This document shows positions 879-21,524 of a DNA stretch of 64,000 nucleotides, piece after piece. The stretch's first letter is position 1, and every line of letters begins with the position of its first letter. The DNA lies in the NCBI RefSeq assembly GCF_023498005.1, contig NZ_CP097289.1, forward strand, positions 1,860,001-1,924,000. The letters are read 5' to 3'. This stretch comes from Streptomyces durmitorensis (lineage in GTDB: Bacteria; Actinomycetota; Actinomycetes; Streptomycetales; Streptomycetaceae). Below the pieces are notes generated by a model. The model did no database searches, was not told the origin of the DNA, and worked only from the letters and a program-made list of their open reading frames with translations. Both the position numbers and the translations under genes were made by a program.

Positions 879-890
879 GGAGCCCGCGCG

Positions 891-4271: not shown

Positions 4272-4396
4272 GGTGACCGGTGTTGGGGCCGGCCGGCGGT
4301 GCGCGTCGGTCGGCCCCGGGACCCGTGCGCACACGAAAGGAATTGGACAGGGGGCGCTGGCCAGGATCTTTTCGACGCAAGGGGTGCTGAATCAAC

Positions 4397-5785: not shown

Positions 5786-5786
5786 T

Positions 5787-7163
5787 ATGACGGCGGAGCC
5801 CATCGCCACAGGAAACAAGGCGCCTGGAAGCGGCACCCCGTATCGCGAGATCACCGACGAGCACGGCCGCGTCTATCGCGTGGGCGAGACGGACCGGGAC
5901 ATCCTCGGCCATTCCCGCAAGATCATGGTGTACCTGCCGTGGATCGCGATGATGGCCATCAGTGTCTTCGAGTATGCGTTCGGCTCGGCGGAGGACACCC
6001 TGTCCCACGCCCACGGCTGGACGCAGTCCAACACCTTCTGGATTCTGAGTGTCTGGGTCTTCTTCCAGGCAGGCATCGCGTTCCCGGCGGGATGGATGCG
6101 CGAGAAGGGCATCCTGACGGCGCGGAACGCCATGTACACCGGGTCGTTCATGTGCCTGATCGGATTCCTCGCCCTGTCACACCTGAACAACGTATGGCTC
6201 GCGATCATCGGGTTCGGCGTCATCGGCGGCGTGGGCTCCGGCTTCGTCTACGCGACCTGCATCAACATGGTTGCCAAGTGGTTTCCCGAACGCCGTGGCG
6301 CGAAGACGGGGTTCGTCAACGGAGGATTCGCCTACGGGTCCCTGCCGTTCATCTTCATATTCAACTACGCCTTCGACACCGGCAATTACCACCGGGTGCT
6401 CGACCTGATCGGCGCGTACATCCTCGTCGTCGTCCTGGCCTGTGCCTTCTTCTTCAAGGACCCGCCGAAGAACTGGTGGCCCTCCGACGTGGACCCGCTG
6501 GAGAAGTCGGGCGCCTCGAAGGACGCCGCGAGCCTCGCCAAGAACCCGCCCGCGGTACGTCAGTTCACACCGAAGGAAGCCATCAGGACGGGCATGCTGC
6601 CCCTCATGTGGTTCACCCTCGTCATGACCGCGGGTGTGTCCATCTTCGGGATCTCCTTCCAGGTGGACTTCGCCAAGGAGGTGGGCTTCGGCCCCCTGGT
6701 CGCCGCGACCTCGATGGGGCTCATGGCCGTCATCAACGGCATCGGACGCGGAGTGGTCGGCTGGCTCTCCGACATCTGGGGCCGCAAGGCGACCCTGGTG
6801 TTCGTGATCCTGGTCCTCGGGCTCTCGCAGTTCGGGGTGATCTGGGCGGGCGACATCCACAGCGAGTGGCTCTTCCTGGTCTTCGCGTTCCTCTCGGGAT
6901 TCGGTGGCGGTGCGTTCTACCCGATGTTCGCGGCGCTGACCCCGGACTACTTCGGGGAGAACTACAACGCCACCAACTACGGGCTCGTCTACAGCGGCAA
7001 GCTGATCAGCGGCCTGTTCGGCGGCGGGATGGGCTCGATGGTGGTGGCCGCGTGGGGCTACAACGGCGCGTACGCCCTCGCGGGCGGCATCTCCATGCTG
7101 GCGGCGGCCGTCGCGCTGCTGCTGCGCCAGCCGGGGCGGGAGAGGGCGCCGGTGCACGCCTGA
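5787..7163 (+). CDS. OFA-family (OxlT-type) MFS oxalate/formate antiporter, copy 2
   Basis: This 458-residue paralogue of the upstream carrier shares the YREITDEHGRVYRVGETD head, the DPPKNWWP loop and GWLSDIWGRKA. I chose ATG 5787, one base after the upstream TGA, because the longer in-frame start at 5769 would overlap the upstream gene and has no better ribosome site. By eye the two copies are roughly two-thirds identical, so this is an old tandem duplication that has since diverged. The pair may differ in affinity or direction (oxalate in, formate out). A strong hairpin follows 18 nt after the stop. Confidence 0.88.
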   Translation: MTAEPIATGNKAPGSGTPYREITDEHGRVYRVGETDRDILGHSRKIMVYLPWIAMMAISVFEYAFGSAEDTLSHAHGWTQSNTFWILSVWVFFQAGIAFPAGWMREKGILTARNAMYTGSFMCLIGFLALSHLNNVWLAIIGFGVIGGVGSGFVYATCINMVAKWFPERRGAKTGFVNGGFAYGSLPFIFIFNYAFDTGNYHRVLDLIGAYILVVVLACAFFFKDPPKNWWPSDVDPLEKSGASKDAASLAKNPPAVRQFTPKEAIRTGMLPLMWFTLVMTAGVSIFGISFQVDFAKEVGFGPLVAATSMGLMAVINGIGRGVVGWLSDIWGRKATLVFVILVLGLSQFGVIWAGDIHSEWLFLVFAFLSGFGGGAFYPMFAALTPDYFGENYNATNYGLVYSGKLISGLFGGGMGSMVVAAWGYNGAYALAGGISMLAAAVALLLRQPGRERAPVHA

Positions 7164-7240: not shown

Positions 7241-8404
7241 TCAGCGCTTCTTGCGGAGAGCCGCCAGGTTGTCGTAGCCGATCTTCGCAAGCTTCAGGGA
7301 CTGGCCCGGATCGGTGCCGCTCGGCGCGTTGTCCTGCTCGACCATGGGGTTGTGGTAGTTCTTCTCGCCGACACGGCTGAAGAAGGTGCGGTAGTCGATG
7401 ACGCCCTCGCCGAAGGCCACCATGTCGTAGCCCTGGCCGCTGGTGTCGTTGCGGGTGCCGTCCTTGGCGTGGAACAGCGGGTAGCGCTTGTTGTTGCGGC
7501 TGACGAGCGCCGCCGGGTCGAAGACCTTCTTGCGCTGGGAGCCGTCGTGCGCGGTGTACGTGTGGAACTTGTACTGCGCGACGTGCGCCCAGTAGATGTC
7601 CATCTCCAGCCAGACCGTCCGCGGGTCGGTGGCCTTGAGGAAGTACTCCAGCCTGCGGATGCCGGAGCTGCGGGTCGGGCGGCCCTGTGCGTCGAGCGGG
7701 CCGCCGTCGAGCAGGAAGCCGTACGCCGCGTCGTGGTTGTGCGTGTAGAGCTTGATGCCGGCCTTGCGCGCGATGGTGCCCATGGCGTTCCACTTGTCGG
7801 CGGCGACATCCCAATCGGCCTTGTACGAGCTGTTGGTGGGGTCGCCGCCGGTGCCCATGTGGTCCATGCCCAGGATGTTGGCGATCTCCAGGTGCTTCTT
7901 GAACGTGTCGAGGTCGGGCTGCGAGAGCGGCCATGACCCCGGTATGAAGCCGTGGTTTCCCTGGGCGCGCAGGCCGTACTCGTCGAGCCAGGAGCGCAGC
8001 AGCTTGGCGCCCGCCACGGACTCCAGGCTGGCGCCGCCGGGGGCGTTGGCGTGCTGGCCGTAGCCCGCGAACTCGACCTGCTTGTAGCCGTAGCGGGCCA
8101 GCTCCTTGAACACCTCGCGGAAGCCGGAGGGCAGGTCGGAGGTGAGCGGGTCGCGGCCGGTCGCGTCACGCACCGTGTAGAGGATGATGCCGCGCTTGTT
8201 CGCGGGCACCAGCTCGCGGCCGTGACCGTGGTGATGGCCGTGGCCCTGTGTCCGCGACTGGGCGAAGGACGGTGCCGCGCCGAACACGGGCGCGGCGATC
8301 GCGCCCGCGCCGACGGCGGTGCACGTGCTGAGGAAGCGGCGGCGGTTGATGCCGAGGCGCTGTCTGAGGGCCTCGTCGGCGGGAGTGTCGTGGAAGTCGG
8401 TCAC
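7241..8404 (-). CDS. Tat-exported sugar phosphate isomerase/epimerase-like TIM barrel
   Basis: This 387-residue protein has a twin-arginine signal at its N-terminus (NRRRFLSTCTAVGAGAIAAP, about 20-39). A His-rich linker GHGHHHGHG and an AP-endonuclease-2 type TIM barrel follow. Candidate metal ligands are in VEFAGYG, LYTHNHDA, WLEMDIYW and LFHAKDGT. Export through Tat suggests a folded, metal-loaded enzyme working outside the membrane, possibly on a keto sugar or cyclitol. The GTG start is at 8404. The 117 nt upstream (8405-8521) hold no gene; this could be the last gene of the ebo-like unit or have its own promoter. The substrate is unknown. Confidence 0.82.
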   Translation of the reverse strand: MTDFHDTPADEALRQRLGINRRRFLSTCTAVGAGAIAAPVFGAAPSFAQSRTQGHGHHHGHGRELVPANKRGIILYTVRDATGRDPLTSDLPSGFREVFKELARYGYKQVEFAGYGQHANAPGGASLESVAGAKLLRSWLDEYGLRAQGNHGFIPGSWPLSQPDLDTFKKHLEIANILGMDHMGTGGDPTNSSYKADWDVAADKWNAMGTIARKAGIKLYTHNHDAAYGFLLDGGPLDAQGRPTRSSGIRRLEYFLKATDPRTVWLEMDIYWAHVAQYKFHTYTAHDGSQRKKVFDPAALVSRNNKRYPLFHAKDGTRNDTSGQGYDMVAFGEGVIDYRTFFSRVGEKNYHNPMVEQDNAPSGTDPGQSLKLAKIGYDNLAALRKKR

Positions 8405-8521
8405 GGGTGCCTCTCCTGGCTCTTGGACGTGCGGGCGGACGCCACTGGTGCGTTGTCAGTGACGCGTGCTTCACTTTCTGTAACTGCTCCTGGTCGGGCG
8501 GGGGATGGGGCGAGGTATGTC

Positions 8522-9898
8522 TCAGCCCAGGCCGGCCAGGTCGAGGAGGAGGGATTTCACGGCGGTGGCCGCGATCCTGTCGGGAAGCGCATGGGGGGTG
8601 GAGCTGATGATGAGCGGACCGTCGTCGTCGCTCGTGGGAAGGCGGCCGTGGCTGCCGCGAATAGGTGAGGGGTCGAGGGGCACGACCGCCATGCGGTAGC
8701 GCATGCCGAGCTTCTTGCGGGCCAGCGCGCCCGCGGCCTTGACCTTCACATAGGGGTCGAGGGGGTCCATGAAGAGCTCGACGGGGTCGTAGCCGGGTTT
8801 GCGGTGGATCTCGACGAGCTGCGCGAAGTCGGGCGCGCGGGCGTCGTCGAGCCAGTAGTAGTACGTGAACCAGGCGTCCGGCTCGGCGACGGCGACGAGC
8901 TCGCCGGAGCGCGGGTGGTCCAGGCCGTGGGCCTTCTTGCCCTCGTCGTCGAGGAGTTGCTCGATGCCGGGCAGGTCGGCCAGTGCCTGACGGGTGGCTT
9001 CCATGTCCTCGGGCCTGCGCACGTAGATGTGGGCGATCTGGTGGTCCGCGACGGCGAAGGCGCGGGACGTCATGGGGTCGAGGTACTCCATGCCGTCCTG
9101 GGTGTGCACTTCGAGCAGTCCTGCGCGGCGCAGGGCGCGGTTGATGTCGACGGGGCGGTCCACGCGGGTGATGCCGTACTCGGACAGGGCGACGACGGTG
9201 CGGCCCTCGGCCTTCGCCTCGTCGAGGAGGGGGGCGATGGTCGCGTCGAGTTCGGCGGCGGCCCGGTGGGAGCGCGGGTCGTCGGGGCCGAAGCGCTGGA
9301 GGTCGTAGTCGAGGTGAGGGAGGTAGCACAGGGCCAGGTCGGGGTGGCGGGTGCCGATGATGTGGCGCGTGGCGTCCGTGATCCAGCGGCTGGAGACGAT
9401 GTCGGCGCCGGGGCCCCAGAAGTGGAAGAGGGGGAACGTGCCGATTTTCTCGGTGAGTTCGTCGTGCAGGGCCGGGGGCCGGGTGTAGCAGTCGGGTTCC
9501 TTGCGGCCGTCGGCGTAGTAGACGGGACGGGGGGTGATGGTGATGTCGGTGTCGGCGCCCATGGCGTACCACCAGCAGATGTTGGCGACGGTGTAGCCGG
9601 GATGCGCGCGTCGGGCGGCGTCCCACAGTTTGTCGCCCGAGACGAGGCCGTTGTGCTGCCGCCACAGGAGTACGTCGCCGAGCTCACGGAAGTACCAGCC
9701 GTTGCCGACGATGCCGTGCTCGGCGGGTGTGGTGCCGGTGAGGAAGGTGGACTGGGCGGCGCAGGTGACGGCGGGCAGGACCGTGCCCAGCGGGGCCTGG
9801 GAGCCGGACTGGCCAAGGGACTTGAGGTGCGGCATGTGGTCGAGGAGACGGGGGGTGAGGCCGACGACGTCAAGGACGAGGAGAGGGGTTGGGCTCAT
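8522..9898 (-). CDS. eboF: EboF-like alkaline phosphatase superfamily (nucleotide pyrophosphatase/phosphodiesterase) protein
   Basis: This is 458 residues without a signal peptide. The N-terminus LLVLDVVGLTPRLLDHMPHL supplies the first metal Asp. TCAAQSTFLTGTTPAEHGIVGNGW holds the phosphate-accepting Thr region typical of type I phosphodiesterases, and ADHQIAHIY provides later metal ligands. The ATG overlaps the stop of the EboE gene as ATGA, so translation is probably coupled. This superfamily hydrolyses phosphodiester or phosphomonoester bonds. In ebo clusters EboF is the phosphatase-like member, consistent with its position here. Naming rests on fold, motifs and gene context. Confidence 0.82.
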   Translation of the reverse strand: MSPTPLLVLDVVGLTPRLLDHMPHLKSLGQSGSQAPLGTVLPAVTCAAQSTFLTGTTPAEHGIVGNGWYFRELGDVLLWRQHNGLVSGDKLWDAARRAHPGYTVANICWWYAMGADTDITITPRPVYYADGRKEPDCYTRPPALHDELTEKIGTFPLFHFWGPGADIVSSRWITDATRHIIGTRHPDLALCYLPHLDYDLQRFGPDDPRSHRAAAELDATIAPLLDEAKAEGRTVVALSEYGITRVDRPVDINRALRRAGLLEVHTQDGMEYLDPMTSRAFAVADHQIAHIYVRRPEDMEATRQALADLPGIEQLLDDEGKKAHGLDHPRSGELVAVAEPDAWFTYYYWLDDARAPDFAQLVEIHRKPGYDPVELFMDPLDPYVKVKAAGALARKKLGMRYRMAVVPLDPSPIRGSHGRLPTSDDDGPLIISSTPHALPDRIAATAVKSLLLDLAGLG

Positions 9899-11064
9899 GG
9901 GAGTTCCTTCAGGCCGAGGTCCGTCAGGAGATCGCGGGCGAGGGTGAGCTCGGCGGCGATCCCGTCGGCGAGCTGGGGGCGGGAGCGGGGGCGCAGTTCG
10001 GGCGGCAGCGCCTGCCAGGTGTAGGTCTCGACCTCGAGGTGACGGGTGCGGGGCTCGGGACCGCCGACCAGGTGGGCGAGGGTGTCCTTGAGTACGGGGA
10101 GCGTGGAGGTGAGGGGCGGCGCGGGAGGCGCGTGCAGGGGGACGTGGAAGTGGGCGCGCCAGGGCGCCGTCTCGGGCAGGGCGTCACCGGCGAGGGATTC
10201 GCCGAGGTCGTCGGTGCCGCGCAGTCCGGCCGCGGTGCGGGTGCGGGTCTGGTGCAGGAAGCGGGGCTCGTCGAAGGCGGCGAGGGCCTCACGGACAGAA
10301 GGGAGATGGGGGTGTTCGGCGTGCAGGGCGGCGGAGAGCTGGGACTTGACGACGGGGATGCCCGCGACCGCGAGCGCGTCGAGCGCGGTCCGCGGGTCCT
10401 CGAAGGAGGTGGCGAGGTGACAGGTGTCGACGCAGACACCGATGCGGTCGTGGCCGATCGCGGTGAGCGGGGCGATCGCGTCGCCCGTGGTCTCCACGGT
10501 GCAGCCCGGTTCCGGTTCGAGGCCGATGCGGATCGATTTGCCGGTCAGCTCCGCGAGCGCGTCCAGGCGTTGGGCGAGCGCGGTGAGGGCGGCGCGGGCG
10601 GCTTCGGCGTGGGTGGTGTCGAAGGGGGTGCGCCAGGCGAGAGGAAGGGTGGAGATGGTGCCTTCGGTGGCGTCGTCCGGCAGGAGCGCGGCGAGCAGGC
10701 GGGCCAGGTCGGTCGTGTGGGAGAGGCGCTCGGGGTCGGTCCAGTCCGGCTTGTAGACGCGGTACTTGACCTCTTCGGCGCCGAAGCCCTCGTACGGGAA
10801 GCCGTTGAGGGTGACGACCTCCAGGCCCCGCCGGTCGAGTTCGGTGCGCAGGCCGCGCAGGGCCGCCGGGTCGGTGACCAGGGCGTGCGCGGCGTCCTTG
10901 GCGAGCCACAGGCCGATGCCGAGACGGTCCCTGCCGAGCCGTTTGCGCACGGGTTCGCAGTGGTCGCGGAGTTGAGCGAGGACGCCGTCGAGGGTCTCGG
11001 CGGGGTGGACGTTGGTGCAGTACGCGAGGTGGACGACGCTGCCGTCGGGGTGCCGGAAGCGCAT
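9895..11064 (-). CDS. eboE: Metabolite traffic protein EboE (sugar isomerase-like TIM barrel)
   Basis: The 389-residue protein opens with HLAYCTNVHPAETLDGVLAQL, the recognisable EboE opening. Other EboE-like stretches are GLWLAKDAA, LNGFPYEGF and YKPDWTDPERL. Metal-site-like segments IGLEPEPGC, VCVDTCHLATSFE and HFHVPLH mark a xylose-isomerase-type TIM barrel. The family is implicated with the other ebo genes in making or moving a metabolite across the inner membrane in cyanobacteria; its reaction is not established. It starts 3 nt after the TatD-like gene and overlaps eboF by 4 nt. Confidence 0.88.
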   Translation of the reverse strand: MRFRHPDGSVVHLAYCTNVHPAETLDGVLAQLRDHCEPVRKRLGRDRLGIGLWLAKDAAHALVTDPAALRGLRTELDRRGLEVVTLNGFPYEGFGAEEVKYRVYKPDWTDPERLSHTTDLARLLAALLPDDATEGTISTLPLAWRTPFDTTHAEAARAALTALAQRLDALAELTGKSIRIGLEPEPGCTVETTGDAIAPLTAIGHDRIGVCVDTCHLATSFEDPRTALDALAVAGIPVVKSQLSAALHAEHPHLPSVREALAAFDEPRFLHQTRTRTAAGLRGTDDLGESLAGDALPETAPWRAHFHVPLHAPPAPPLTSTLPVLKDTLAHLVGGPEPRTRHLEVETYTWQALPPELRPRSRPQLADGIAAELTLARDLLTDLGLKELP

Positions 11065-11067
11065 GGC

Positions 11068-11916
11068 TCACGCCCCGCCGCGGAGGATGGAGTTGCCCTC
11101 GTGGGTGGCTTCGGTGTCCGTCACATCGAGCGCGAGGCGGCCGCTGAGTCCGTAGAAGGAGACCGGGTTGCGCCACAGCACCAGGTCGACGTCGTCCTCG
11201 GTGAACCCGGACTCCAGCATGGCGTCGGCGACCTTGCGGGTCTTGAGCGGGTCGCTCTTGCCCCAGTCGGCCGCCGAGTTGACCAGGACCCGCTCGGTGC
11301 CGTGGTCGCGCAGGATGGCGACCATCCGGTCCTCGTCCATCTTGGTCTCGGGATAGACGGAGAAGCCGAGCCAGCATCCGCTGTCCTTGGCCTCCTTGAC
11401 CGTGGTCTCGTTGAGATGGTCGACGAGGACCCGCTCCAGGGGCAGCGCGGACTCCCGGACGACGTCGAGGGTGCGGCGCATGCCCGCGAGCTTGTCGCGG
11501 TGCGGGGTGTGGACGAGGGCCGGCAGCTCGTGGTCGGCGGCGAGCTGGAGCTGGGCGGCGAAGGCGGCGTCCTCGGCGGGGGTCATGGAGTCGTAGCCGA
11601 TCTCGCCGACGGCCACGACGTTGTCCTTGACGAGATAGCGGGGCAGCTCGTCGATGACCGGGGTGCAGCGGGGGTCGTTCGCCTCTTTGGGGTTGAGGGC
11701 GATGGTGCAGTGGTGGGCGATGCCGTACTGGGCCGCGCGGAAGGGCTCCCAGCCGAGCAGGGAGTCGAAGTAGTCGAAGAAGGAGGCCGGGGAGGTGCGG
11801 GGCTGGCCCAGCCAGAACGCGGGCTCGACGACGGCGCGGACGCCTGCGGCGTACATGGCCTGGTAGTCGTCGGTGGTGCGGGACGTCATGTGGATGTGGG
11901 GGTCGAAGATGCGCAT
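11068..11916 (-). CDS. eboB: TatD-family metal-dependent hydrolase (EboB-like)
   Basis: This 282-residue amidohydrolase-fold protein starts MRIFDPHIHMTSRTTDD, with the DxHxH metal motif at residues 5-9. AVGEIGYDS (Glu), LVHTPHRDK (His) and VLVDHLNE (His) follow, the usual TatD ligands. I placed the start at ATG 11916, which overlaps the EboA stop as TGATG. The open frame continues 79 codons upstream but those residues are Arg/Pro-rich antisense-type sequence. TatD-like EboB is a constant member of ebo clusters. Its physiological substrate is unknown. Confidence 0.88.
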   Translation of the reverse strand: MRIFDPHIHMTSRTTDDYQAMYAAGVRAVVEPAFWLGQPRTSPASFFDYFDSLLGWEPFRAAQYGIAHHCTIALNPKEANDPRCTPVIDELPRYLVKDNVVAVGEIGYDSMTPAEDAAFAAQLQLAADHELPALVHTPHRDKLAGMRRTLDVVRESALPLERVLVDHLNETTVKEAKDSGCWLGFSVYPETKMDEDRMVAILRDHGTERVLVNSAADWGKSDPLKTRKVADAMLESGFTEDDVDLVLWRNPVSFYGLSGRLALDVTDTEATHEGNSILRGGA

Positions 11917-12599
11917 CAGGACTCCTGATCCTCGCCGGTGGAAGGGGTCGCGGGGGCCGATGGCGCCGCTGCGGCCGAGGGGGCCGTAGGGGCGGCCAGG
12001 GCCAGGACGCGGTGCAGATCGCCGGGGACGGTGCGACCGGCAGCGGTGCGTTCGCCTGCGTAGTCGCCGAGCATGCGGGCGAGCTCGGCGTCGGCGCGGG
12101 CGCGGCGGTCGAGGTCGGCGACGGCTGCCACGGGGACACCGGTGAACAGGCACTTGAGCACCGCGTGGCGCCAGTCGTGCGGGGCGAGGTGCCGGGCTGC
12201 GTACGGACCGACGGCGGCGGCGACGAGCCGGGTGTCGTTGGTGCGCAGGGCGTCCTCGACCAGGGGCAGCGTCCCAGGCCCCTCGACCAGGTGGGGCAGG
12301 GCGAGCAGGACGGCTCGACGCTCGGCCGCGGTGCCTTGTTCGTAGACGCGGGTGAGGGTGGCCGGGTCCGCTTCGGCCGTGTGCAGGAGCAGCACGCGGG
12401 CGGCGTCGGCGTGGTCCTGGCCGCAGCGCCGCCCGGCCTCGGCGAAGCGCAGCTCCCAGAGGGGGGCCGGGCGTTGCTCCGGCCGTCCGCGGTGGGCGGC
12501 GGCCTCCGCCGTGGCCTGGTCGAGCCAGGCGCGGGCTGCCCCGTCGAGGGCGGCTTCGAGGCGGGTACGGAGGTCGTCGATGACGGCGGTCTCGGTCAC
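11916..12599 (-). CDS. eboA: EboA-domain protein
   Basis: This 227-residue, mostly alpha-helical soluble protein has no catalytic motif I can name. LRFAEAGRRCG, LLHTAEADPATLTRVYEQGTA, RRAVLLALPHL and DWRHAVLKCLFTGVPV match the character of EboA, where helical-repeat-like segments surround a conserved FTGVP-type motif. The last ~30 residues are an Ala/Pro/Ser/Thr tail with repeated APSAP, probably disordered. GTG 12599 overlaps the preceding isomerase stop as GTGA, and the end overlaps eboB by one base. The role is unknown; in other bacteria it travels with eboB, C, E and F. Confidence 0.85.
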   Translation of the reverse strand: MTETAVIDDLRTRLEAALDGAARAWLDQATAEAAAHRGRPEQRPAPLWELRFAEAGRRCGQDHADAARVLLLHTAEADPATLTRVYEQGTAAERRAVLLALPHLVEGPGTLPLVEDALRTNDTRLVAAAVGPYAARHLAPHDWRHAVLKCLFTGVPVAAVADLDRRARADAELARMLGDYAGERTAAGRTVPGDLHRVLALAAPTAPSAAAAPSAPATPSTGEDQES

Positions 12600-13507
12600 G
12601 GGGTTCTTCCTCTGGCCGGGGCCGTACTCATCGCTTCGGTGGCCGCCTTGTTCAGGAACTCGATCGACCGGGAGGCGAGTTGGGGGCCCGCGTGGGAGTG
12701 GCGGGGCAGTTCGACGACGGTGAGGCCCTGGTAGCCGGTGGCAGCGAGGGCTTCGAGGACGGGCGGGAAGTCGATCTCTCCGTCCCCGAACGGGAGGTGT
12801 TCGTGGACGCCCCGGCGCATGTCCTCGATCTGGACGTGCCGGAGCCAAGGGGCGGCGGCGCGCACGCAGTCGGCGGGCGACTGCGGTTCCAGGCACTGGC
12901 AGTGGCCGATGTCGAGGGTGAGGCCGAGGAGCTGGGGATCTCCCAGTTCGTGACGGAGCCGGTGGAAGTCGGCGAGCGTGGAGAGGAGGTGGCCGGGTTC
13001 GGGTTCGATGGCCAGGGGCACACCGGCGCCGGACGCGGCGTCAAGGACGGGACCGATGGCTTCGGCGAGCCGCTGCCAGGCGGTGTCCTCACAGGTGCCT
13101 TCGGGGGTGATGCCGCTGAAGCAGTGCACGGCGTGGGCACCGAGGTCGGCGGCGACCTGGACGGCACGGATCAGCAGGCGGACACGGGCGGCGCGCGCGT
13201 CCGGGTCGGGGTCCAGGAGCGAGGGGCCGTGCTTGCGGCGCGGGTCGAGCACGTAGCGGGCGCCGGTCTCGATCGTCGCCGTCAGACCGAGCCGCTCCAG
13301 GCTGCGGGCCACGTGGCGGGTGCGGGCGGCGAGGTCGGGGGCGAGGGGGTCGAGGTGCATGTGGTCGAGGGTGAGGCCGACGCCCGCGTAGCCGAGGTCG
13401 GCGAGGAGGCCGAGGGCGTCGTCGAGGCGGAGGTCGGTCAGCCCGTTGGTGCCGTAGCCGAAGCGGAAGGGGGGCGGGGCCCCCGTCGCGTGAGCAGTAC
13501 CCGTCAT
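12596..13507 (-). CDS. Sugar phosphate isomerase/epimerase-like TIM barrel in the ebo-like operon
   Basis: This 303-residue AP-endonuclease-2 type barrel carries candidate metal ligands in LAIEPEPGHLLS (Glu), LGLTLDIGHCQ (Asp, His), HVQIEDMRRG and VVELPRHSH (Glu). ATG 13507 overlaps the upstream UbiA stop as ATGA, and its own stop overlaps eboA as GTGA. The long upstream extension of the frame is antisense to eboC and was rejected. It is distinct from EboE (little similarity beyond the fold), so the operon carries two cytoplasmic barrels. It may epimerise or isomerise the cyclitol or sugar made by the first gene; that is inference. Confidence 0.83.
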   Translation of the reverse strand: MTGTAHATGAPPPFRFGYGTNGLTDLRLDDALGLLADLGYAGVGLTLDHMHLDPLAPDLAARTRHVARSLERLGLTATIETGARYVLDPRRKHGPSLLDPDPDARAARVRLLIRAVQVAADLGAHAVHCFSGITPEGTCEDTAWQRLAEAIGPVLDAASGAGVPLAIEPEPGHLLSTLADFHRLRHELGDPQLLGLTLDIGHCQCLEPQSPADCVRAAAPWLRHVQIEDMRRGVHEHLPFGDGEIDFPPVLEALAATGYQGLTVVELPRHSHAGPQLASRSIEFLNKAATEAMSTAPARGRTP

Positions 13508-15099
13508 GTGACGCTCACCTTCCGGCCGAACTTGCGGGCAGCCGGGGCCAGCGCGGCGGTCAGCAGCGCGGAGCCCAGGGCGCCCGTCCGGGCGGAGAGT
13601 GCGGCCTGGAGCGGGATCATGGCTCGGATGCCGCCGCCCACGGCCCGCTGGGTGAGCTGCGGGGACGGGTTGAGCGCGGCGTGGAAGAGGGGCCGGGCGG
13701 CGGTGACCGCGTAGGTGGCGGCGAGCGCGGCCTGGACGGCACCGCGAGCGCCGGTCCGCCAGTCGCTGCCGGGGCCGCCCGAGCCCACGGGACGCCCCGT
13801 GGCCAAGCCCGGCACGCCGCCGGGGGGCCACGCCCGGCTCGCTGGACGACCCGCCCATCGGCCCGCGGCGGCCAGCACCGAGGCAACCTCGGAGGCGGCG
13901 GCCGGGGCGCCCGGCGATGGCTGCCCACTGGTGGAGCCCGGTAGGCCGCGGGTGGCTGCTGCGCCGCGGCCTACCGGGAGTTGAGGGGCGCCGGGGCGGA
14001 CTGCGCTGCCGGTGTCGTAGCCGGTACCGAGGCCACCGCCTGCTGCGCCGGAGCCTGTTCCAGAACCGGAACCAGCGACTGCCCCGAAGCCGGAACCGGT
14101 ACCTGCCCCGAAGCCGGTGCCGGTGCCGGTGCCGGTGCCAGTGCCAGAACCGGAGCCTGCCCCGGCGCCGGCTTCACTGCTCAAGCTGTCGCCGAAGCCG
14201 GGGCTGACCGAAGCCCCGGCACCAGTGCCTGTTCCGGCGTCGGCACCCGCCCCGCGACAGGCACCGCCCCTGCCGCCCCTGCCGCTCCGGGCCAGCAGTT
14301 GTGCAAGCGCCGCCGTCGCCGCGAGCGCGCACAAGGGTGCCGCCGTGGAGCCGCCCTGGGCTTCGCGGCGCGAGACCGCCGTCACCGCGAGGGTGTGGGC
14401 GCCCAGGACGAGGGCCGTGGGAACCGCCGCGCGGAGGCCTCCCCCGGCGACGGGACGAGCGAGTGCGGGCCTTCCCGAGAGCTTCGCGCTCCCCCTCCGG
14501 CCCACCCTCCGGCCCGCCCCCGGACTCACCGCCCGCACGCCCGCCGAGGTCGGTGCCGACGTGGCCGCCGCCCCCAGGAGCAGGTCGAGCGCACGGGCCG
14601 CCGCCATCGCGGCCGGGCCCGCCGGAGTGTGCTTCAGGCCCAGGTCGTACGCCCACACCGTGGCCGCCAAGCCGCTCGCCACCGTCAGAGCGGGGCGTCC
14701 CGCGCCCGCGGCCAGGGCAAGGCCTCCTGCCGTCAGAGCCGCCGCCGCGCCCAGTGCGGCAGCCGGGGCTATGCGGCCGGACGGCAACGGGCGGTGCGGG
14801 CGCTCGATCGCGTCCTCCGCCCGGTCCGCCCAGTCGTTGAGGGCCATGCCCGCCTCGTAGAGGGAGAGAGAGGCGGCGACGGCGAGGAGAGTGCGGCGGT
14901 TGGGTCGCAGCCCCGTCGCCGCCGCCCCGGCAAGAGCGTCGCCGGGGACGGTGAACAGGGCGGAGACACGCAGCAGTTCGGCCCAGTCACGGCCGGTGCC
15001 CAGAGGGACACCTCCCCGGCTCCCCGGTTCGGAAACGGAACCTGAGCCCTCACGGGAATCCGAGCCCTCAGCCGAAGCACTCGCGCTCCCGCCCCTCAC
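13504..15099 (-). CDS. eboC: UbiA-family prenyltransferase (EboC-like) with a large low-complexity insertion
   Basis: The membrane prenyltransferase core is clear: LLRVSALFTVPGDALAG, then the first Asp-rich motif NDWADRAED (about 88-96), LPSGR, and AYDLGLKHT as second motif. The core resumes near residue 450 with QAALAATYAVTAARPLFHAALNP. Between about residues 272 and 450 lies Gly/Ser/Thr/Ala sequence encoded by GC hexamer repeats, so the protein is 531 residues against roughly 300 for usual UbiA members. GTG 15099 overlaps the MIPS stop as GTGA. UbiA enzymes transfer polyprenyl groups to aromatic or sugar-type acceptors. The acceptor here is unknown, although the preceding cyclase gene suggests a cyclitol. 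Confidence 0.85.
   Translation of the reverse strand: MRGGSASASAEGSDSREGSGSVSEPGSRGGVPLGTGRDWAELLRVSALFTVPGDALAGAAATGLRPNRRTLLAVAASLSLYEAGMALNDWADRAEDAIERPHRPLPSGRIAPAAALGAAAALTAGGLALAAGAGRPALTVASGLAATVWAYDLGLKHTPAGPAAMAAARALDLLLGAAATSAPTSAGVRAVSPGAGRRVGRRGSAKLSGRPALARPVAGGGLRAAVPTALVLGAHTLAVTAVSRREAQGGSTAAPLCALAATAALAQLLARSGRGGRGGACRGAGADAGTGTGAGASVSPGFGDSLSSEAGAGAGSGSGTGTGTGTGTGFGAGTGSGFGAVAGSGSGTGSGAAGGGLGTGYDTGSAVRPGAPQLPVGRGAAATRGLPGSTSGQPSPGAPAAASEVASVLAAAGRWAGRPASRAWPPGGVPGLATGRPVGSGGPGSDWRTGARGAVQAALAATYAVTAARPLFHAALNPSPQLTQRAVGGGIRAMIPLQAALSARTGALGSALLTAALAPAARKFGRKVSVT
14027..14180. repeat. Degenerate GGTGCC/GGAACC hexamer repeat tract inside eboC
   Basis: Hexanucleotide units such as GCCGGT and GCCAGA recur for about 150 bp, with a pure run at 14113-14146. 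They encode alternating Gly-Thr, Gly-Ser and Gly-Ala in the reading frame of the UbiA gene and keep the frame open. The tract is at the heart of the ~180-residue insertion. There is no spacer structure, so it is not a CRISPR array. Confidence 0.85.
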
Positions 15100-16265
15100 G
15101 CACCCACCCCCCGCAGCCGAGAAGCGAACCCGACGAGCGCCTCGTACTGCTCGGCGAGGGCCGACGACGAGCCGTCGTCCGGGTCCTTGAAGTAGAAGCC
15201 CAGCTCCCCCAAGGGCCCGGAAAGACCCCTCTCGTGGGCGCGGGCCAGCAAGCGGGCCAGGTCCAGGATCAGCGGTGCCGCGAGGGCCGAGTCGCAGCCC
15301 TGCCAGGTCGTCTGCAGGACCATCCGCGCGCCGAGGAAGCCGTCGAACGCGATGTGGTCCCAGGCGGTCTTCCAGTCGCCGAGCGAGGGGACGTCGTCGA
15401 TGTGGACCTCGCCCTCGGGGGCGGAGCCCAGCGTGTCCGCGAGGACCCGCTCCTTGCCGGCGTTCTTCGCCGCCGCCGCGGCCGGGTCCGCGAGGGCCGC
15501 GCCGTCTCCGCCGCCCAGGAGGTTCGTGCCCGACCAGGCGCGGACCGCGAGCGCGCGCTGGGCGAACATCGGGCCGATGACCGACCGCAGGAGCGTCTGG
15601 CCCGTCTTGCCGTCCCGGCCCGCGTAGGGAAGCCCGGATGAGGCGGCCGCCGAGGCAAGGTCCGGGTGGTGCAGGCCCGTCGACGGGGTGAAGTTCACGT
15701 ACGGGCAGCCCGCCCGCAGCGCCGCTGCCGCGTAGAGCGAGCTTGCGGGCAGCCTCCCCGCGCCCTCCTCCGGCAGCGGTTCCGTCGACGCCACGTTCAC
15801 GACCACCGCACGGGCAAGTCCCCGGCGACGTACGAAATCGCGGAGGTCTGCGGCGAAGGACGCGATCAGTTCCTCGTCCGTCCTGCCGTCGGAGTCCCCG
15901 CGGCGCGGCCCGCCCGCGCGGATCTCCGCGTCCGCGGCGGCCAGTTCGGCGGCCACCGCGGACGGCACGCCGTGCGGGAGCACACCCCCGGCGGCCAGCT
16001 GCTCCGCCCGCTTGGGCAGCGGGCACTCCATCACGTCGTGGCCGCCGAAGACCAGCGAAGACAACGTTGGCAGACCGCTGTCGGCGAACGGCCCGGTCTC
16101 CGTGACCATGCCGGTCGGCGGGTGCAGGCCGGCCGTCACGGCCGCGCACCCCGCGACCGCCGTCGTGGCGACCGAACCACGCGCTCCGATCAACCACACC
16201 CCGGTCGGCCCGCCACCCGAAGAACCAGATGAGCCAGAAGAACCAGAAGAAGGGGAATGGGACAC
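15096..16265 (-). CDS. Inositol-3-phosphate synthase (MIPS) family protein
   Basis: In this 389-residue protein, a Ser/Gly-rich head is followed by a Rossmann motif GVWLIGARGSVATT (about 22-35), the MIPS NAD site. VVVNVASTEPLP and FTPSTGLHHPDL follow. The catalytic region has DGKTGQTLLRSVIGPMF, WSGTNLLGGGDG and KNAGKERVL with the expected Lys residues. MIPS cyclises glucose-6-phosphate to inositol-3-phosphate through NAD-linked oxidation, aldol closure and reduction. GTG 16265 has AGGAGG at 16271-16276. It heads the ebo-like operon, so its product may feed EboC/EboE rather than general inositol metabolism. A different hexose phosphate is possible. Confidence 0.88.
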   Translation of the reverse strand: MSHSPSSGSSGSSGSSGGGPTGVWLIGARGSVATTAVAGCAAVTAGLHPPTGMVTETGPFADSGLPTLSSLVFGGHDVMECPLPKRAEQLAAGGVLPHGVPSAVAAELAAADAEIRAGGPRRGDSDGRTDEELIASFAADLRDFVRRRGLARAVVVNVASTEPLPEEGAGRLPASSLYAAAALRAGCPYVNFTPSTGLHHPDLASAAASSGLPYAGRDGKTGQTLLRSVIGPMFAQRALAVRAWSGTNLLGGGDGAALADPAAAAAKNAGKERVLADTLGSAPEGEVHIDDVPSLGDWKTAWDHIAFDGFLGARMVLQTTWQGCDSALAAPLILDLARLLARAHERGLSGPLGELGFYFKDPDDGSSSALAEQYEALVGFASRLRGVGA

Positions 16266-16353
16266 GGCTGCCTCCTGTCGTACACGCGGCGATCGCGCTG
16301 GGGAAGAAAGACGGGGAAGGACGGGGAAGAGAGACGGCTGACGGAAGTAAAGA

Positions 16354-16387
16354 CGGCGGGCGGAGGTCCGGCGTCCTCCGCCCGCCG
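16354..16387 (-). terminator. Hairpin terminator after the ThuA-DUF1080 gene
   Basis: A perfect 13-bp stem (16354-16366 with 16375-16387) and 8-nt loop lie just past the TAG at 16392-16394 on the minus strand. It separates the sugar-dehydrogenase unit from the MIPS/ebo unit, whose promoter should be in 16266-16350. Confidence 0.85.
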
Positions 16388-16391
16388 CCGT

Positions 16392-17753
16392 CTAGCGGCC
16401 CACGCCGGACGCGGCGTCGGCCGGCAGGTCCTTCACCCGGATGTCACGGAAGGAGACCTGGTCGTCGGCACCGTGGTTCTGGATGCCGATGTGACCGTCC
16501 TTCAGGCTCCTCGCGGGATCCGTGTTGGTGAAGTCGTTGATCTTCACTCCGTTGAGAAAGATCCGAAGGCGTTCGCCCTCGACCCGGAGCTCGTAGGTGT
16601 TCCACTCCCCCGGCGGATTCAGCGCCTTGTCGCGCTGCTTCAGGTCGGCGGACTTGAAGCCGTAGACGGAACCGGTGGTCTTCTCCGGAACGTCCGTGGC
16701 GTCGATCTGGATCTCATAGCCGTTGTTCACAGCCGACCAGGGGTCGTCGGAGGCCGGGAAGCCCACGAAGATCCCCGAGTTGTCGTCGCCGTCCATGCGC
16801 CAGTCCAGCTTGAGGGAGTAGGAGCCGAGCTCCTTCGCCCCGTACCAGAGCATGCCCATGCCGCCGACGGTCTTCAGGGTCCCGTCCTGCTCGTTCAGTT
16901 CGAACGAACCGGGGCCCGCCTGCTTCCAGGCCTCAAGCGACTTGGTCGTGCCGTCGAAGACGGGGGTGTACCCCTTCTCCGGACGGCAGTCGGCTTGCGC
17001 CGCGCCCGTCGCCCAGCGGATCCCGCCGAGCAGATGCGTGCGGTACGCGGCATCGGCGAACGACTCCTTGGTGTGGCCGCTGCCCGTGTAGAAGGAGCGG
17101 CCGCCCTGATAGTCCTGGCACCAGGCGATGGGATGGTCGCCGGACATCGAGCCGCCCGAGTAGGACGACTCGTCGAGCGAGGCCAGGACATGGGCGCGGT
17201 CCCGGGGATTGGAGCGGTAGTTGTACCACTCGTCGGTCCGGTCCCAGATCCCCGGCAGATGCGCCGTGGACGGGTGCCCGTGGTCCTCGACCCGCACCTT
17301 CGCGGGCTGGATCGCGGGGTGCGACTGGAAGTACGCGCCCGCGAGCCCGCCGTAGAAGGGCCAGTCGTACTCGGTGTCGGCGGCGGCGTGCACGCCCACG
17401 TACCCGCCGCCCTTCTTGATGTAGCCCTCGAAGGCCCTCTGCTGGGCGGCGTTGAGGACGTCGCCCGTCGTCGAGAGCCAGACCACGGCGTCGTAGCGCG
17501 CGAGGTTCTTGGCCGTGAAGGCCCCGGCGTCCTCGGTCGCGTCGACGGCGAAGCCGTTCGCCGTGCCGAGCTCCTTGATGGCCGCGATGCCCTCAGGGAT
17601 GGAGTCGTGGCGGAAGCCCGCGGTCTTCGAGAAGACCAGGACCTTCTCACCCTCCTGCTTGCCCTCCGGCTTCGATGCCGCGGGGCCCGACACACAGCCG
17701 ATGAGCAGAGCGGCGGCGGCGCTCGCGGTGGCGATCCGTGCGGATGCGCGCAT
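16392..17753 (-). CDS. ThuA-domain plus DUF1080 (3-keto-glycoside hydrolase-like) lipoprotein
   Basis: The 453-residue protein has a lipobox LLIGC (Cys20). A ThuA domain spans about 37-250 (VLVFSKTAGFRHDSIPEGIAAI; GGGYVGVHAAADTE; AWCQDYQGGRSFYTGSGHT). A DUF1080 jelly-roll spans about 268-445 (YTPVFDGTTKSLEAW; NSGIFVGFPA; GEWNTYELRVEGERL; HIGIQNHG). DUF1080 proteins are linked to hydrolysis of 3-keto-glucosides, and ThuA to keto-sugar use. It should be anchored outside the membrane. ATG 17753 has GGAAGGGG ahead of it and starts 13 nt after the sugar-dehydrogenase gene, so the two are probably cotranscribed. Confidence 0.88.
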   Translation of the reverse strand: MRASARIATASAAAALLIGCVSGPAASKPEGKQEGEKVLVFSKTAGFRHDSIPEGIAAIKELGTANGFAVDATEDAGAFTAKNLARYDAVVWLSTTGDVLNAAQQRAFEGYIKKGGGYVGVHAAADTEYDWPFYGGLAGAYFQSHPAIQPAKVRVEDHGHPSTAHLPGIWDRTDEWYNYRSNPRDRAHVLASLDESSYSGGSMSGDHPIAWCQDYQGGRSFYTGSGHTKESFADAAYRTHLLGGIRWATGAAQADCRPEKGYTPVFDGTTKSLEAWKQAGPGSFELNEQDGTLKTVGGMGMLWYGAKELGSYSLKLDWRMDGDDNSGIFVGFPASDDPWSAVNNGYEIQIDATDVPEKTTGSVYGFKSADLKQRDKALNPPGEWNTYELRVEGERLRIFLNGVKINDFTNTDPARSLKDGHIGIQNHGADDQVSFRDIRVKDLPADAASGVGR

Positions 17754-17766
17754 GGTGACCCCTTCC

Positions 17767-20280
17767 TCAGCTCGTGGTGAAGGTGAGGTCGTCGACGTCG
17801 TACAGGGCTCCGGTGCCCGTGCCCTTGAAGACCAGGAAGAGCGTCGTCGTCGACCTCGGTGCCTTGCTGATGGCGGTGCTCACGTCGGTGTAGGTCTCCC
17901 ACCCACCGGTCGGTGCGACCTTGGCCTTGCCCAGGAGCCTGCCGGTGGCCGAGCCGCTGCGGACCTCGAGCGTGCCGCCCGCTCCGGCCGACGCGACGCG
18001 CGCGGTCAGCTTGGTGGCGTTGCCGAGGATGTAGGGCTTGAAGGAGATCCAGTCGCCGTTGTTGATGTCGCCGACCGTCTTGCCGCCGTGCGCCGGGGTG
18101 TGGTTGGTGATGGAGACGCCCTTGGAGCCGTCGTAGTGCTCGGCCTGGCGGTGCTTGGGCTGGACGACGTTCTGGTCGTGCGTGGTCAGCGCGGGCTGGC
18201 CATTGGCACCCTTGTCGGTGTACTCGGCGTCGAAGACCCCGAAGATGTTGGCGTTCGGGTCATGCTCGCCGTCCGCCGACGTCTGGAGGGTTCCCTCGCA
18301 GCCGTTGGCCGTGGTCACCGGGTGGCCGTGGCTGTCATGGCCGAGGATGTGGGTGACCTTGACCTTGGTGCAGTCGATCGGGCCGTCTTCCCTGTCGGTC
18401 ACCTTCACCTTGAAGGGCACCTTGTCGCCGAAGGTGAACAGCTGCCCGTCGCCCGGGAGATCCAGCGTGACCTTGGGCGCGGTGTTGCCGACGGTGACGT
18501 GCGCGCTGGCCGATCCGGTGCGCCCGGTGGAGTCCTTGACGGTCACGGTCGCGGTGTACACGCCGTTCTTCTTATACGTGTACGAGGGGTTCTGCTGGGT
18601 CGACTTGCCGCCGTCGCCGAAGTCCCACGCGTAGGTCAGCGTGCCGCCGTCGGCGTCCGTGGCCTTCGCGGTGAAGTTGGTCCTGAGCGGGGCCTGGCCG
18701 CTGGTCACGGAGGCGCTCGCCTCGACGACCGGGGAGTGGCCGTCGGTGGCGTTCTCGATGCGGAAGAGACCGGAGTTCTCGTCGCCGCCGAACCAGGCGG
18801 TGCCGTAGTCCAGGACGTACAGCGCGCCGTCGGGGCCGAACTCCATGTCCATGATCTGCGTGCCCGTCCAGGGGAACGGGTTGATCTTGGAGACCGTGCC
18901 GTCCGCGCTCTGCTCGATGCGCTTGATCCAGCGCCGTCCGAACTCACCCGCGAAGAAGTCGCCGTCGTACGCCTCCGGGAACTTCACCGGGGAGGTGTTG
19001 GCCGCGTCATAGCGGTAGACGGGGCCGCCCATCGGGGACTCCGAGCCCGAGCCGAACTCGGGGACGGATCCGCCGTCGTAGGGAATCCAGGCTTCCTGTG
19101 CGGCCGGCAGATCGGTCAGGCCGGTGTTGTGCACGGAATCGTTCTTCGGTGCGGCGCAGTCGAAGGCGGCGCCGGAGGTCTGGGTCGCGAAGTCGTAGTC
19201 GATGTAGGCGTCGTTCTTGCCGGTGCAGTACGGCCAGCCGAAGTTGCCCGGCTTGGTCACGCGGGCGAACTCGACCTGTCCTGCGGGGCCGCGCTTGGGG
19301 TCGGCCGCGCCCGCGTCGGGTCCGTAGTCGCCGACGTACACCGTGCCGGTGGGCTTGTCGACGCTCATGCGGAAGGGGTTGCGGAAGCCCATCGCGTAGA
19401 TCTCGGGCTTGGTCTTCTCGGTGCCCGGCGCGAAGAGGTTGCCGTCCGGGACGGTGTACGTGCCGTCGTCGGCGACCTTGATGCGCAGGATCTTGCCGCG
19501 CAGGTCGTTGCTGTTGCCGGCGCTGCGGCGGGCGTCGAAGGCGGGGTTGCGGTCCGCGCGCTCGTCGAGCGGCGAGAAGCCGTCCGAGGCGAAGGGGTTG
19601 GAGTCGTCGCCCGTCGAGAGGTAGAGGTTGCCGTCCTTGTCGAAGTCGATGTCGCCGCCTACGTGGCAGCAGATGCCGCGGGTCGCGGGGACGTCGAGGA
19701 CCTTCTTCTCGCTGGCGTTGTCGAGGGTGCCGTCGGTCTTCAGGACGAAGCGGGAGAGGCGGTTGACGCCGTCGAACTTCTTGAAGTCGTCGGCCGTGCC
19801 GGTCTCCGGGGCGTCGCCCGCGGGGGTGTCGAGCGGGGGCGCGTAGTAGAGGTAGATCGCGCGGTTCTCGCTGAACTTGGGGTCGAGGCCGACGCCTTGG
19901 AGGCCCTCTTCGTCGTGCGTGTAGACCGGTATCTTGCCCGCGATCTTGGTGTTGCCCGCGGCGTCCGTGAGCCGGAGCGTGCCGTCGCGGGAGGTGTGCA
20001 GGACCGAGCGGTCGGGCAGGACGGCGAGTGTCATCGGCTCGCCCGTCTCGGTCTCGCCCTTGGCGAGCGTCACTTGCTGGAAGTCCTCGGCCGCGGCGGC
20101 CTTGCCGCCTGCCGCCTCGTCCGCCTGAGCCTGGGCGGCTCGGACGGCCTCCGGGTCGGCGGCGTTCGCGGCGGGGACGGCGAGGGTGAGCGTGGCACCG
20201 GCCAGCAGGGTGCCGGTGAAGAGCGCGAGGGTCTTGCGGAGTCTGCGGGTCTTACGGAGTCTGAGGCGTTTCCTGTGCAC
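17767..20280 (-). CDS. Secreted glucose/sorbosone-dehydrogenase-type (PQQ-like) beta-propeller with PKD and carbohydrate-binding C-terminus
   Basis: I chose GTG 20280, which has GGAGGAA about 7 nt upstream; the frame opens further to 20370 without a ribosome site. A Sec signal (RKTLALFTGTLLAGATLTLAVPAANA) precedes a GSDH propeller (about 60-510; EEGLQGVGLDPKF, CCHVGGDIDFDKDGNLYLS, GMGFRNPFRMS-like AMGFRNPFRMS, FGWPYCTG). A PKD domain follows (about 535-620; AWDFGDGG, YTATVTVKD). A jelly-roll resembling CBM6 comes last, ending YDVDDLTFTTS. These enzymes oxidise aldoses with PQQ. The C-terminus suggests polysaccharide binding. It is upstream of the ThuA-DUF1080 gene. Confidence 0.85.
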   Translation of the reverse strand: MHRKRLRLRKTRRLRKTLALFTGTLLAGATLTLAVPAANAADPEAVRAAQAQADEAAGGKAAAAEDFQQVTLAKGETETGEPMTLAVLPDRSVLHTSRDGTLRLTDAAGNTKIAGKIPVYTHDEEGLQGVGLDPKFSENRAIYLYYAPPLDTPAGDAPETGTADDFKKFDGVNRLSRFVLKTDGTLDNASEKKVLDVPATRGICCHVGGDIDFDKDGNLYLSTGDDSNPFASDGFSPLDERADRNPAFDARRSAGNSNDLRGKILRIKVADDGTYTVPDGNLFAPGTEKTKPEIYAMGFRNPFRMSVDKPTGTVYVGDYGPDAGAADPKRGPAGQVEFARVTKPGNFGWPYCTGKNDAYIDYDFATQTSGAAFDCAAPKNDSVHNTGLTDLPAAQEAWIPYDGGSVPEFGSGSESPMGGPVYRYDAANTSPVKFPEAYDGDFFAGEFGRRWIKRIEQSADGTVSKINPFPWTGTQIMDMEFGPDGALYVLDYGTAWFGGDENSGLFRIENATDGHSPVVEASASVTSGQAPLRTNFTAKATDADGGTLTYAWDFGDGGKSTQQNPSYTYKKNGVYTATVTVKDSTGRTGSASAHVTVGNTAPKVTLDLPGDGQLFTFGDKVPFKVKVTDREDGPIDCTKVKVTHILGHDSHGHPVTTANGCEGTLQTSADGEHDPNANIFGVFDAEYTDKGANGQPALTTHDQNVVQPKHRQAEHYDGSKGVSITNHTPAHGGKTVGDINNGDWISFKPYILGNATKLTARVASAGAGGTLEVRSGSATGRLLGKAKVAPTGGWETYTDVSTAISKAPRSTTTLFLVFKGTGTGALYDVDDLTFTTS

Positions 20281-20399
20281 GGGGGTTCCTCCGGAAGGGG
20301 GACGGTCGTACGCGGGTGTGGTGCGGTGGCGCCGGGCGCCGGGGTGCGCCGTCACCCCGGGGAGATTCATGTCCTGTACACATCAGGGACGGTAGCCAC

Positions 20400-21512: not shown

Positions 21513-21524
21513 GAACAGTCCTCC

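Follow-up and report, generated by a model that had tools for sequence, protein, structure and literature searches.

A seven-gene ebo operon without EboD

The 64,000-nucleotide window analysed here, positions 1,860,001 to 1,924,000 of contig NZ_CP097289.1 of Streptomyces durmitorensis, carries on its minus strand a run of seven closely packed genes between positions 16265 and 8522. Read from its head, the run encodes a myo-inositol phosphate synthase (MIPS) homologue, a UbiA-family prenyltransferase, a TIM-barrel protein called TIM1 here, and homologues of EboA, EboB, EboE and EboF. It is an ebo operon that lacks EboD, the cyclase resembling dehydroquinate (DHQ) synthase, and has a MIPS instead. 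An earlier note on this DNA had remarked on this combination; the observation is confirmed and reaches far beyond the window. The ebo gene set is widespread among bacteria. It has been proposed to make an isoprenoid-cyclitol (Yurchenko et al. 2016, PMC5133447), and in Nostoc the scytonemin monomer depends on it to reach the periplasm (Klicki et al. 2018, PMC6282210).

The head gene (15096..16265; all features of the operon lie on the minus strand) starts with GTG and encodes a 389-residue sugar-phosphate cyclase of the MIPS family, archaeal type, which scores 118.3 bits with PF07994 and 101 bits with PF01658, both above cut-off. The second gene (13504..15099, 531 residues, GTG start at 15099) overlaps the MIPS stop by 4 bases and encodes the prenyltransferase, in the position of EboC. 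This protein reaches 367.5 bits with NF045897, the ‘SCO3242 family’ model (cut-off 260), versus 106.8 bits with the EboC model NF035940 (cut-off 250). TIM1 (12596..13507, 303 residues) is a metal-dependent, sugar-isomerase-like TIM barrel (PF01261, 154.3 bits). It is followed by an EboA-domain protein (11916..12599, 227 residues), which exceeds the cut-off of NF035938 (164.5 versus 50 bits) and stays under that of the stricter family model NF035937 (59.4 versus 320 bits). EboB (11068..11916, 282 residues) is a TatD-like metal-dependent hydrolase (PF01026, 51 bits, cut-off 27), EboE (9895..11064) is a TIM-barrel protein (NF035939, 426.7 bits, cut-off 250), and EboF (8522..9898) belongs to the phosphodiesterase/nucleotide pyrophosphatase family (PF01663, 234.9 bits, cut-off 23). 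EboB and EboF are named from Pfam only, EboE and the EboA domain from NCBI cut-offs. A sequence search of the PDB returned no useful relatives of EboE or EboF. The profile searches bear out the run of ebo homologues with a MIPS at its head, and the EboE and EboA-domain assignments, named beforehand as a check in the earlier note, hold.

All junctions from MIPS to EboF are overlaps or gaps of a few bases. The extent first given for the operon, 7241..16265, is corrected to 16265–8522. Two extra TIM-barrel isomerases had been counted with it; TIM1 belongs to the conserved block, and the second, TIM2 (7241..8404), is a neighbour. The core order MIPS-UbiA-TIM1-EboA-EboB-EboE-EboF is unchanged in 74 of 82 MIPS-type loci (among the first 106 loci mapped, with the window included and core genes alone counted), which is more than chance. 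A sigma-70 promoter scan of the region gave no match. A terminator-like stem of 15 pairs (16352..16389) sets MIPS apart from the upstream ThuA gene; it is weak by itself because the stem search found 3 such sites in the region versus 2.6 expected.

The claim that no DHQ-synthase-like EboD is present was correct for the whole 9.86-Mb genome. Its sole DHQ-synthase match (PF01761) is located beyond the window, and the frame that holds it reads as AroB; an EboD located elsewhere in the genome is rejected on this ground. Because EboD is missing, we class the operon as an ebo variant rather than a standard one. PMC5133447 already lists a few sets of ebo genes that lack eboD. The known ebo operon has EboA, EboB, UbiA, EboE and EboF homologues in one run, as here; it differs in gene order and in having EboD where the window has MIPS and TIM1. 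PMC5133447 also mentions an actinobacterial EboA fused to a xylose-isomerase-like protein, whereas the window has two overlapping genes. The word inositol is absent from the main text of that paper. Work on Ubi-297 (PMC9235831) includes ebo clusters of the actinobacterium Saccharomonospora, and in the passages concerned EboD is named for the cluster in general, not genome by genome. Among the matches listed in the open-access literature on ebo, Streptomyces, inositol and SCO3239–SCO3244, no description of a MIPS-type ebo operon was found.

The operon cyclase and its companion enzymes

The genome has two PF01658 genes, the operon MIPS and a mycothiol-type Ino1 at C1:4847106-4848158. The latter is the housekeeping enzyme, with 729.9 bits to TIGR03450 and 600 bits to Mycobacterium tuberculosis Ino1. 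The operon MIPS scores 32.6 bits with TIGR03450, far under the cut-off of 638, and the presence of a separate Ino1 led us to reject it as the housekeeping enzyme of the genome. Among PDB chains its nearest relative is the Archaeoglobus MIPS (203 bits; M. tuberculosis Ino1, 34 bits). The predicted structure (mean predicted local distance difference test (pLDDT) score 88.7) is also closest to the Archaeoglobus enzyme, with a template modelling (TM) score of 0.84–0.90. Fold and catalytic residues are alike in the archaeal-type MIPS of A. fulgidus (PDB 1u1i) and in Bacteroides thetaiotaomicron BT1526 (7nwr, TM 0.78–0.89), to which the operon MIPS is about 36% and 30% identical, respectively; the difference is a glycine that replaces Asp/Asn at Archaeoglobus position 259.

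The catalytic residues N248, K267, K271, K299, D325 and K360 (15186..15524) correspond to N255, K274, K278, K306, D332 and K367 of the Archaeoglobus enzyme. Their roles are described in PMC5614600 and PMC11348189, and PDB titles of Archaeoglobus MIPS mutants name N255A, K278A and K367A. All six are kept in 86 of 86 ebo-MIPS rows (82 mapped loci and 4 named Streptomyces). Position 259 is residue 252 here (Gly codon at 15510..15512); the MIPS compared from outside the actinobacterial ebo group have Asn or Asp there. In the alignment it is Gly in 85/85 actinobacterial ebo-MIPS rows and Asn in 121/121 Gemmatimonadota-group rows, in 19/19 other actinobacterial MIPS and in four references (the housekeeping Ino1, M. 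tuberculosis Ino1, the Bacteroides enzyme and Ari2); in Archaeoglobus it is Asp. By reading the motif, we infer that this position matches N354 of yeast, the second invariant Asn of MIPS block D, which is thus replaced by Gly in all 85 actinobacterial ebo-MIPS. PMC5614600 gives this Asn as invariant in its set and counts N354 of yeast with the residues conserved in the catalytic domain. Because the catalytic residues are kept and position 259 alone departs, the ebo-MIPS looks catalytically active, and its clade carries a single change of its own close to the substrate.

The earlier note had asked for a phylogeny of the operon MIPS and the housekeeping enzyme, and the two are distinct. In the best-sampled MIPS tree the 19 actinobacterial ebo-MIPS form one clade (99*), which lies beside a Gemmatimonadota clade and Archaeoglobus and apart from the Bacteroides-like enzymes. 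Inclusion of distant Ino1 rows blurred the picture along a very long branch. Ari2 (PDB 6k96; PMC11188666), which makes a five-membered cyclitol phosphate in aristeromycin synthesis, is also a MIPS relative recruited for a special Streptomyces product. Unlike the ebo MIPS it is nearer to the mycothiol-type Ino1 (208 bits to the housekeeping protein versus 36.9 bits to the ebo MIPS).

TIM1 accompanies MIPS in 82 of 86 loci and EboD in none of 11, and the distance between MIPS and TIM1 ranges from 71 to 2117 bases across loci. The protein is strongly conserved: E165, D196, H199, D226, H232 and E263 are invariant in 26 rows and form a full set of likely metal ligands. Among the PDB matches of the TIM1 profile were MJ1311 (83.5 bits), UlaE (74.6 bits), IolI (45.4 bits) and IolE (37.4 bits). 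The AlphaFold model (pLDDT 94.5) has its best Foldseek match in UlaE, an epimerase of a phosphorylated ketose. These likenesses suggest that TIM1 acts on a keto sugar or keto-cyclitol, perhaps phosphorylated. In the translation of the prenyltransferase we read the motif NDxxDxxxD; the protein has a long low-complexity insert, within which short G+C-rich tandem repeats occur at 14079–14157.

Cyclase type across ebo loci

A search for EboE gave matches in 19 of 396 genomes of the phylum, 98 of 394 of the class, 6 of 299 of another class and 206 of 295 of Streptomyces (202 of them over cut-off), and in 48 plasmid records, of which 16 were examined. The draws overlap. The examined rows of the class draw (n=75) comprise 60 full-length non-Streptomyces, 11 Streptomyces and 4 partial rows. 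Altogether, 116 EboE loci were mapped with profiles built in this analysis; gene calls by third-position G+C in some loci are a rough guide only. The loci divide into 86 with MIPS, 11 with EboD, none with both, 8 with neither and 11 with EboE alone, counts that are not independent because the loci are related by descent. The phylum draw alone gives 20 loci including the window: 17 with MIPS, 1 with EboD and 2 with neither. The mutual exclusivity of the two cyclases, which the earlier note had proposed as its check, holds in all 116 loci. MIPS loci are spread over Streptomyces, 14 other actinobacterial family codes and one Gemmatimonadota plasmid. Loci outside Actinomycetota are 10 plasmid loci only, 9 of the EboD type and 1 of the MIPS type.

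Among the 8 loci with neither cyclase, L173, L179, L180 and L188 reach the contig end within 235 bases, L009 and L165 are each the second ebo copy of a genome that has a MIPS gene too, L026 is a decayed ebo locus, and L137 carries a Gfo/Idh gene where MIPS would be. One actinobacterial family, f42, holds both types (EboD in L012 and L171, MIPS in L174 and L175, EboE alone in L172); PF07994 matches nothing in its two EboD genomes, each of which has two DHQ-synthase genes. In the 396 genomes of the phylum draw, a PF07994 match occurs in 12 members of the class of S. durmitorensis, and these are the same 12 that have EboE; PF07994 barely detects the housekeeping Ino1. A check of DHQ synthases in 12 genomes found a second gene in the MIPS-type Streptomyces G659, at a distance of over 800 kb from its ebo operons, and a weak partial match in G462. 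In named Streptomyces (the best 80 of 359 loci), MIPS was found in 62 and EboD in 0; in 16 of the 18 loci without MIPS the contig stops no more than 233 bases upstream of the first visible ebo gene.

There is good support for the statement that one cyclase occupies the place of the other, because MIPS and EboD occur together in none of the 116 loci, the EboE and EboA profiles hold and the MIPS is not the housekeeping enzyme. Replacement of one cyclase by the other is the best reading of the pattern. Besides the shared descent of the loci, several exceptions unforeseen in the earlier note weigh against this reading. Sixteen Streptomyces operons (L009, L165 and 14 others) run UbiA-TIM1-EboA-EboB-EboE-EboF without a cyclase, with at least 5 kb seen upstream. 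In 15 of them the genome has another EboE match among the matches listed; in G1078 the cyclase-less copy is the only such match, and no MIPS search of that genome was made. Another MIPS possibly supplies these operons, and a MIPS was present in both genomes checked, G128 and G659. The 14 others come from a set of 32 additional Streptomyces loci, which comprises 13 with MIPS, these 14 with neither cyclase (UbiA and TIM1 kept) and 5 that are cut; 13 with and 14 without MIPS is not a fair sample, because the loci were picked as likely second copies. The named Streptomyces loci L044 and L071 have no MIPS despite 7–8.5 kb upstream. L137 has an ebo operon without cyclase and without TIM1, and in the place of MIPS a Gfo/Idh/MocA gene (12713-13888, minus strand) that is levoglucosan dehydrogenase-like (373 of 650 bits); its genome has another type of MIPS on another contig. 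L026 is a further exception. Of the 82 MIPS loci mapped first, 4 have no TIM1. UbiA was not seen in 7 of the 62 named Streptomyces MIPS loci (best 80 of 359), nor in L157, L124 and L252. EboF is present in both types, though the ring would keep a phosphate in the MIPS type only.

Some features of the MIPS-less loci were noted in passing. L044 (Streptomyces sp. uw30) has EboA-EboB-EboE twice and EboF twice, with no MIPS in 7.1 kb upstream, which may be an assembly error or a duplication. A CrtI/CrtO-like FAD oxidoreductase (88–100% identity) is common to L009, L165, L241, L243, L244, L246, L247, L249 and L250; in L009 its gene lies directly upstream of UbiA. In L233 and L240 the ebo operon is followed by a gene that we read by eye as a cytochrome P450.

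Loci with EboE and no other ebo gene in the stretch are L127, L148, L151, L162, L163, L167–L170 and L172. Five of them (L127, L148, L151, L162 and L172) score 402–442 bits with the profile built here, so that EboE appears to have a life outside the operon.

The MIPS-type operon of the Gemmatimonadota, on a Gemmatirosa plasmid, is another exception. It has EboE, EboB, EboF, UbiA, MIPS and TIM1; EboA was not found, and no DHQ synthase is present in the 1,040,503 bases of the plasmid. In the joint tree of EboB, EboE and EboF, 30 actinobacterial MIPS-lineage loci, including the MIPS-less L009, L165 and L137, lie on one side, and Gemmatirosa lies among the EboD-type operons; one MIPS clade is rejected (approximately unbiased test, p-AU 9e-07). 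A MIPS tree with 31 ebo rows including Gemmatirosa requires two changes for the ebo group. Tested singly, EboB rejects one MIPS clade (p 4e-78, log-likelihood difference 210), EboF does not quite reject it (0.09) and EboE does not (0.71). The inference of two independent cyclase swaps from the joint tree is weakened by this disagreement, since EboB alone rejects one clade. In the UbiA tree the two cyclase types separate, and Gemmatirosa groups with the MIPS type (support 86, not starred). As the EboB signal is of the EboD type, UbiA leans to the MIPS side and EboE and EboF are undecided, the operon is a mosaic. Two recruitments of MIPS are possible; a UbiA-MIPS-TIM1 block, which is contiguous in Gemmatirosa, may have entered an operon whose EboB was of the EboD type.

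Proposed function and genomic surroundings

MIPS and EboD belong to unrelated families, and both close sugar phosphates into carbocycles. Because these unrelated cyclases never occur together in the 116 loci, there is a strong genomic argument for a cyclitol ring as the core of the ebo product. We consider it fairly probable that the operon represents a distinct ebo type, widespread in actinobacteria, in which MIPS and TIM1 supply the carbocycle that EboD supplies elsewhere, for a prenylated cyclitol. The earlier interpretation, one cyclase replaced by the other in an operon that makes a prenylated cyclitol or inositol-like compound, is partly supported. We infer every chemical step, the product and its role as follows. 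MIPS would cyclise a hexose 6-phosphate with NAD and keep the phosphate, and TIM1 would isomerise or epimerise the ring, probably in its keto form. UbiA would then join a prenyl chain to the ring in the membrane, and EboF would take off the phosphate. EboB and EboE would remodel the product, with EboA aiding assembly. The prenylated cyclitol may help to move metabolites across the membrane, as proposed for Nostoc.

A more specific version, which we regard as unlikely, is that the Gly-bearing ebo-MIPS releases a keto-cyclitol phosphate (inosose phosphate) unreduced, which TIM1 isomerises and UbiA prenylates to a new prenyl-cyclitol lipid carrier in metabolite export. If true, this would copy the keto-cyclitol output of EboD-type cyclases.

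It is also conceivable, and in our view improbable, that MIPS merely enlarges the pool of inositol phosphate from which common inositol lipids or mycothiol are made, that its place in the operon is a matter of regulation, and that the ebo product needs no cyclitol. The conserved catalytic residues and the 16 Streptomyces operons that manage without MIPS would suit such an inositol supply. However, the genome has its own mycothiol-type Ino1, the actinobacterial ebo-MIPS form a clade of their own with Gly at the Asn/Asp site throughout, and MIPS was found with EboD in none of the 116 loci.

The genes upstream of the operon bear on another alternative. Directly upstream lie a ThuA domain fused to a 3-keto-disaccharide hydrolase domain (16392..17753, minus strand; PF06283 282 bits, PF06439 144.5 bits) and a probably secreted glucose/sorbosone dehydrogenase-like protein (GSDH) with PKD and CBM6 domains (17767..20370, minus strand; PF07995 128 bits). 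They are followed at 20514–24895 (minus strand) by a TIM barrel orthologous to SCO6571, a Gfo/Idh oxidoreductase, a sugar-binding protein and a permease, the last two of an ABC sugar importer. The SCO6571-like TIM barrel matches PDB 2zds (734 bits), deposited as a putative DNA-binding protein; its next relative is a 2-hydroxy-3-keto-glucal hydratase. From its gene content, 20514–24895 looks like a cluster for uptake and breakdown of 3-keto-glycosides. The whole region could then be a catabolic cluster for 3-keto-glycosides or cyclitols, with the ebo genes serving uptake or breakdown and not synthesis. GSDH, ThuA or the hydrolase occur near 50 of 82 MIPS loci (36 of 63 outside Streptomyces) versus 0 of 6 EboD loci; they occur near 0 of 10 EboE-alone loci and 1 of 8 loci with neither cyclase. 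Yet the association is absent in several families (0/5 in f8, 0/4 in f7), in the plasmid operons L203–L206 and in 14 of 14 MIPS-less Streptomyces copies, and a prenyltransferase and a de novo cyclase suit synthesis better. We regard a catabolic role as quite unlikely.

Two ebo pathways with different end products and common late enzymes, instead of a swap within one pathway, might explain why the cyclases differ in chemistry, why TIM1 goes with MIPS only, why the UbiA tree splits by cyclase type and why the EboC model fits the UbiA of the window poorly, but EboB, EboE and EboF are common to both types and the parts look interchangeable, because Gemmatirosa joins MIPS, TIM1 and a MIPS-side UbiA with an EboD-type EboB, and this explanation seems very unlikely to us.

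If MIPS does replace EboD, the two cyclase types would narrow the chemistry of the ebo product to what both enzymes can yield. The question of the product also becomes testable by routine genetics and lipid analysis, because the MIPS type is found in Streptomyces (EboE in 206 of 295 genomes). Annotations would need correction: ebo-MIPS genes are named inositol-3-phosphate synthase, and PMC3610822 counts SCO3243 as a gene of the calcium-dependent antibiotic (CDA). In the gene list of that source, S. coelicolor SCO3242, the namesake of the NF045897 prenyltransferase model, and SCO3243, a ‘myo-inositol phosphate synthase’, stand as CDA-cluster genes and are not called ebo in the passages concerned. 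It is unlikely that the window holds the copy linked to CDA in S. coelicolor. S. violaceoruber (L070) has the neighbours of the window, GSDH-ThuA-ebo-TIM2, and also the genes beyond TIM2. In its 21-kb stretch no CDA genes were recognised by eye, with no search aimed at them.

Some MIPS-type operons have biosynthetic neighbours, much as ebo adjoins the scytonemin genes. On two Streptomyces plasmids, genes of the ScyD/ScyE family lie directly upstream of the operon (L203, 6221-7423, NF033206 243 bits versus a cut-off of 80; L204, 6026-7225), with a multicopper oxidase and an aromatic prenyltransferase nearby. This neighbourhood is possibly a scytonemin-like extracellular finishing pathway in actinobacteria. 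ScyE acts in the periplasm, where it completes scytonemin once the ebo-dependent export has taken place (PMC6282210), and because of this place in the pathway the neighbourhood supports a shared export role of the MIPS-type ebo. Other biosynthetic neighbours are a non-ribosomal peptide synthetase with a phosphopantetheinyl transferase, and aromatic-polyketide genes; at one locus EboE alone is found in a similar aromatic-polyketide cluster with ketosynthase genes. All these settings are individual cases chosen from plasmids and a small number of chromosomes and do not amount to a measured association; BLAST probes for biosynthetic genes gave matches at few loci.

Beside EboF of the EboD-type actinobacterial operon in L012 lies a gene (12574-13659) that resembles type 2 isopentenyl diphosphate isomerase, which would fit a prenylated product.

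TIM2 (7241..8404, minus strand; PF01261 79.9 bits) is a secreted sugar-isomerase-like protein with a Tat-like signal read by eye, 117 bases beyond EboF and probably outside the ebo block. Its membership of the conserved block is rejected, because it is mainly a Streptomyces neighbour and less regular elsewhere. In Streptomyces the operon is usually flanked by the ThuA/3-keto-disaccharide hydrolase gene with GSDH on one side and by TIM2 on the other: around the 62 named Streptomyces MIPS loci (from the best 80 of 359), ThuA was seen at 59, TIM2 at 61 and GSDH at 35 with the detection used. In the window, 21–7160 (plus strand) encodes a thiamine pyrophosphate enzyme, a coenzyme A (CoA) transferase III, an ATP-grasp CoA ligase and two major facilitator superfamily transporters, a set that resembles an oxalate/formate cluster. 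Genes that look like these by eye come after TIM2 in S. violaceoruber as well.

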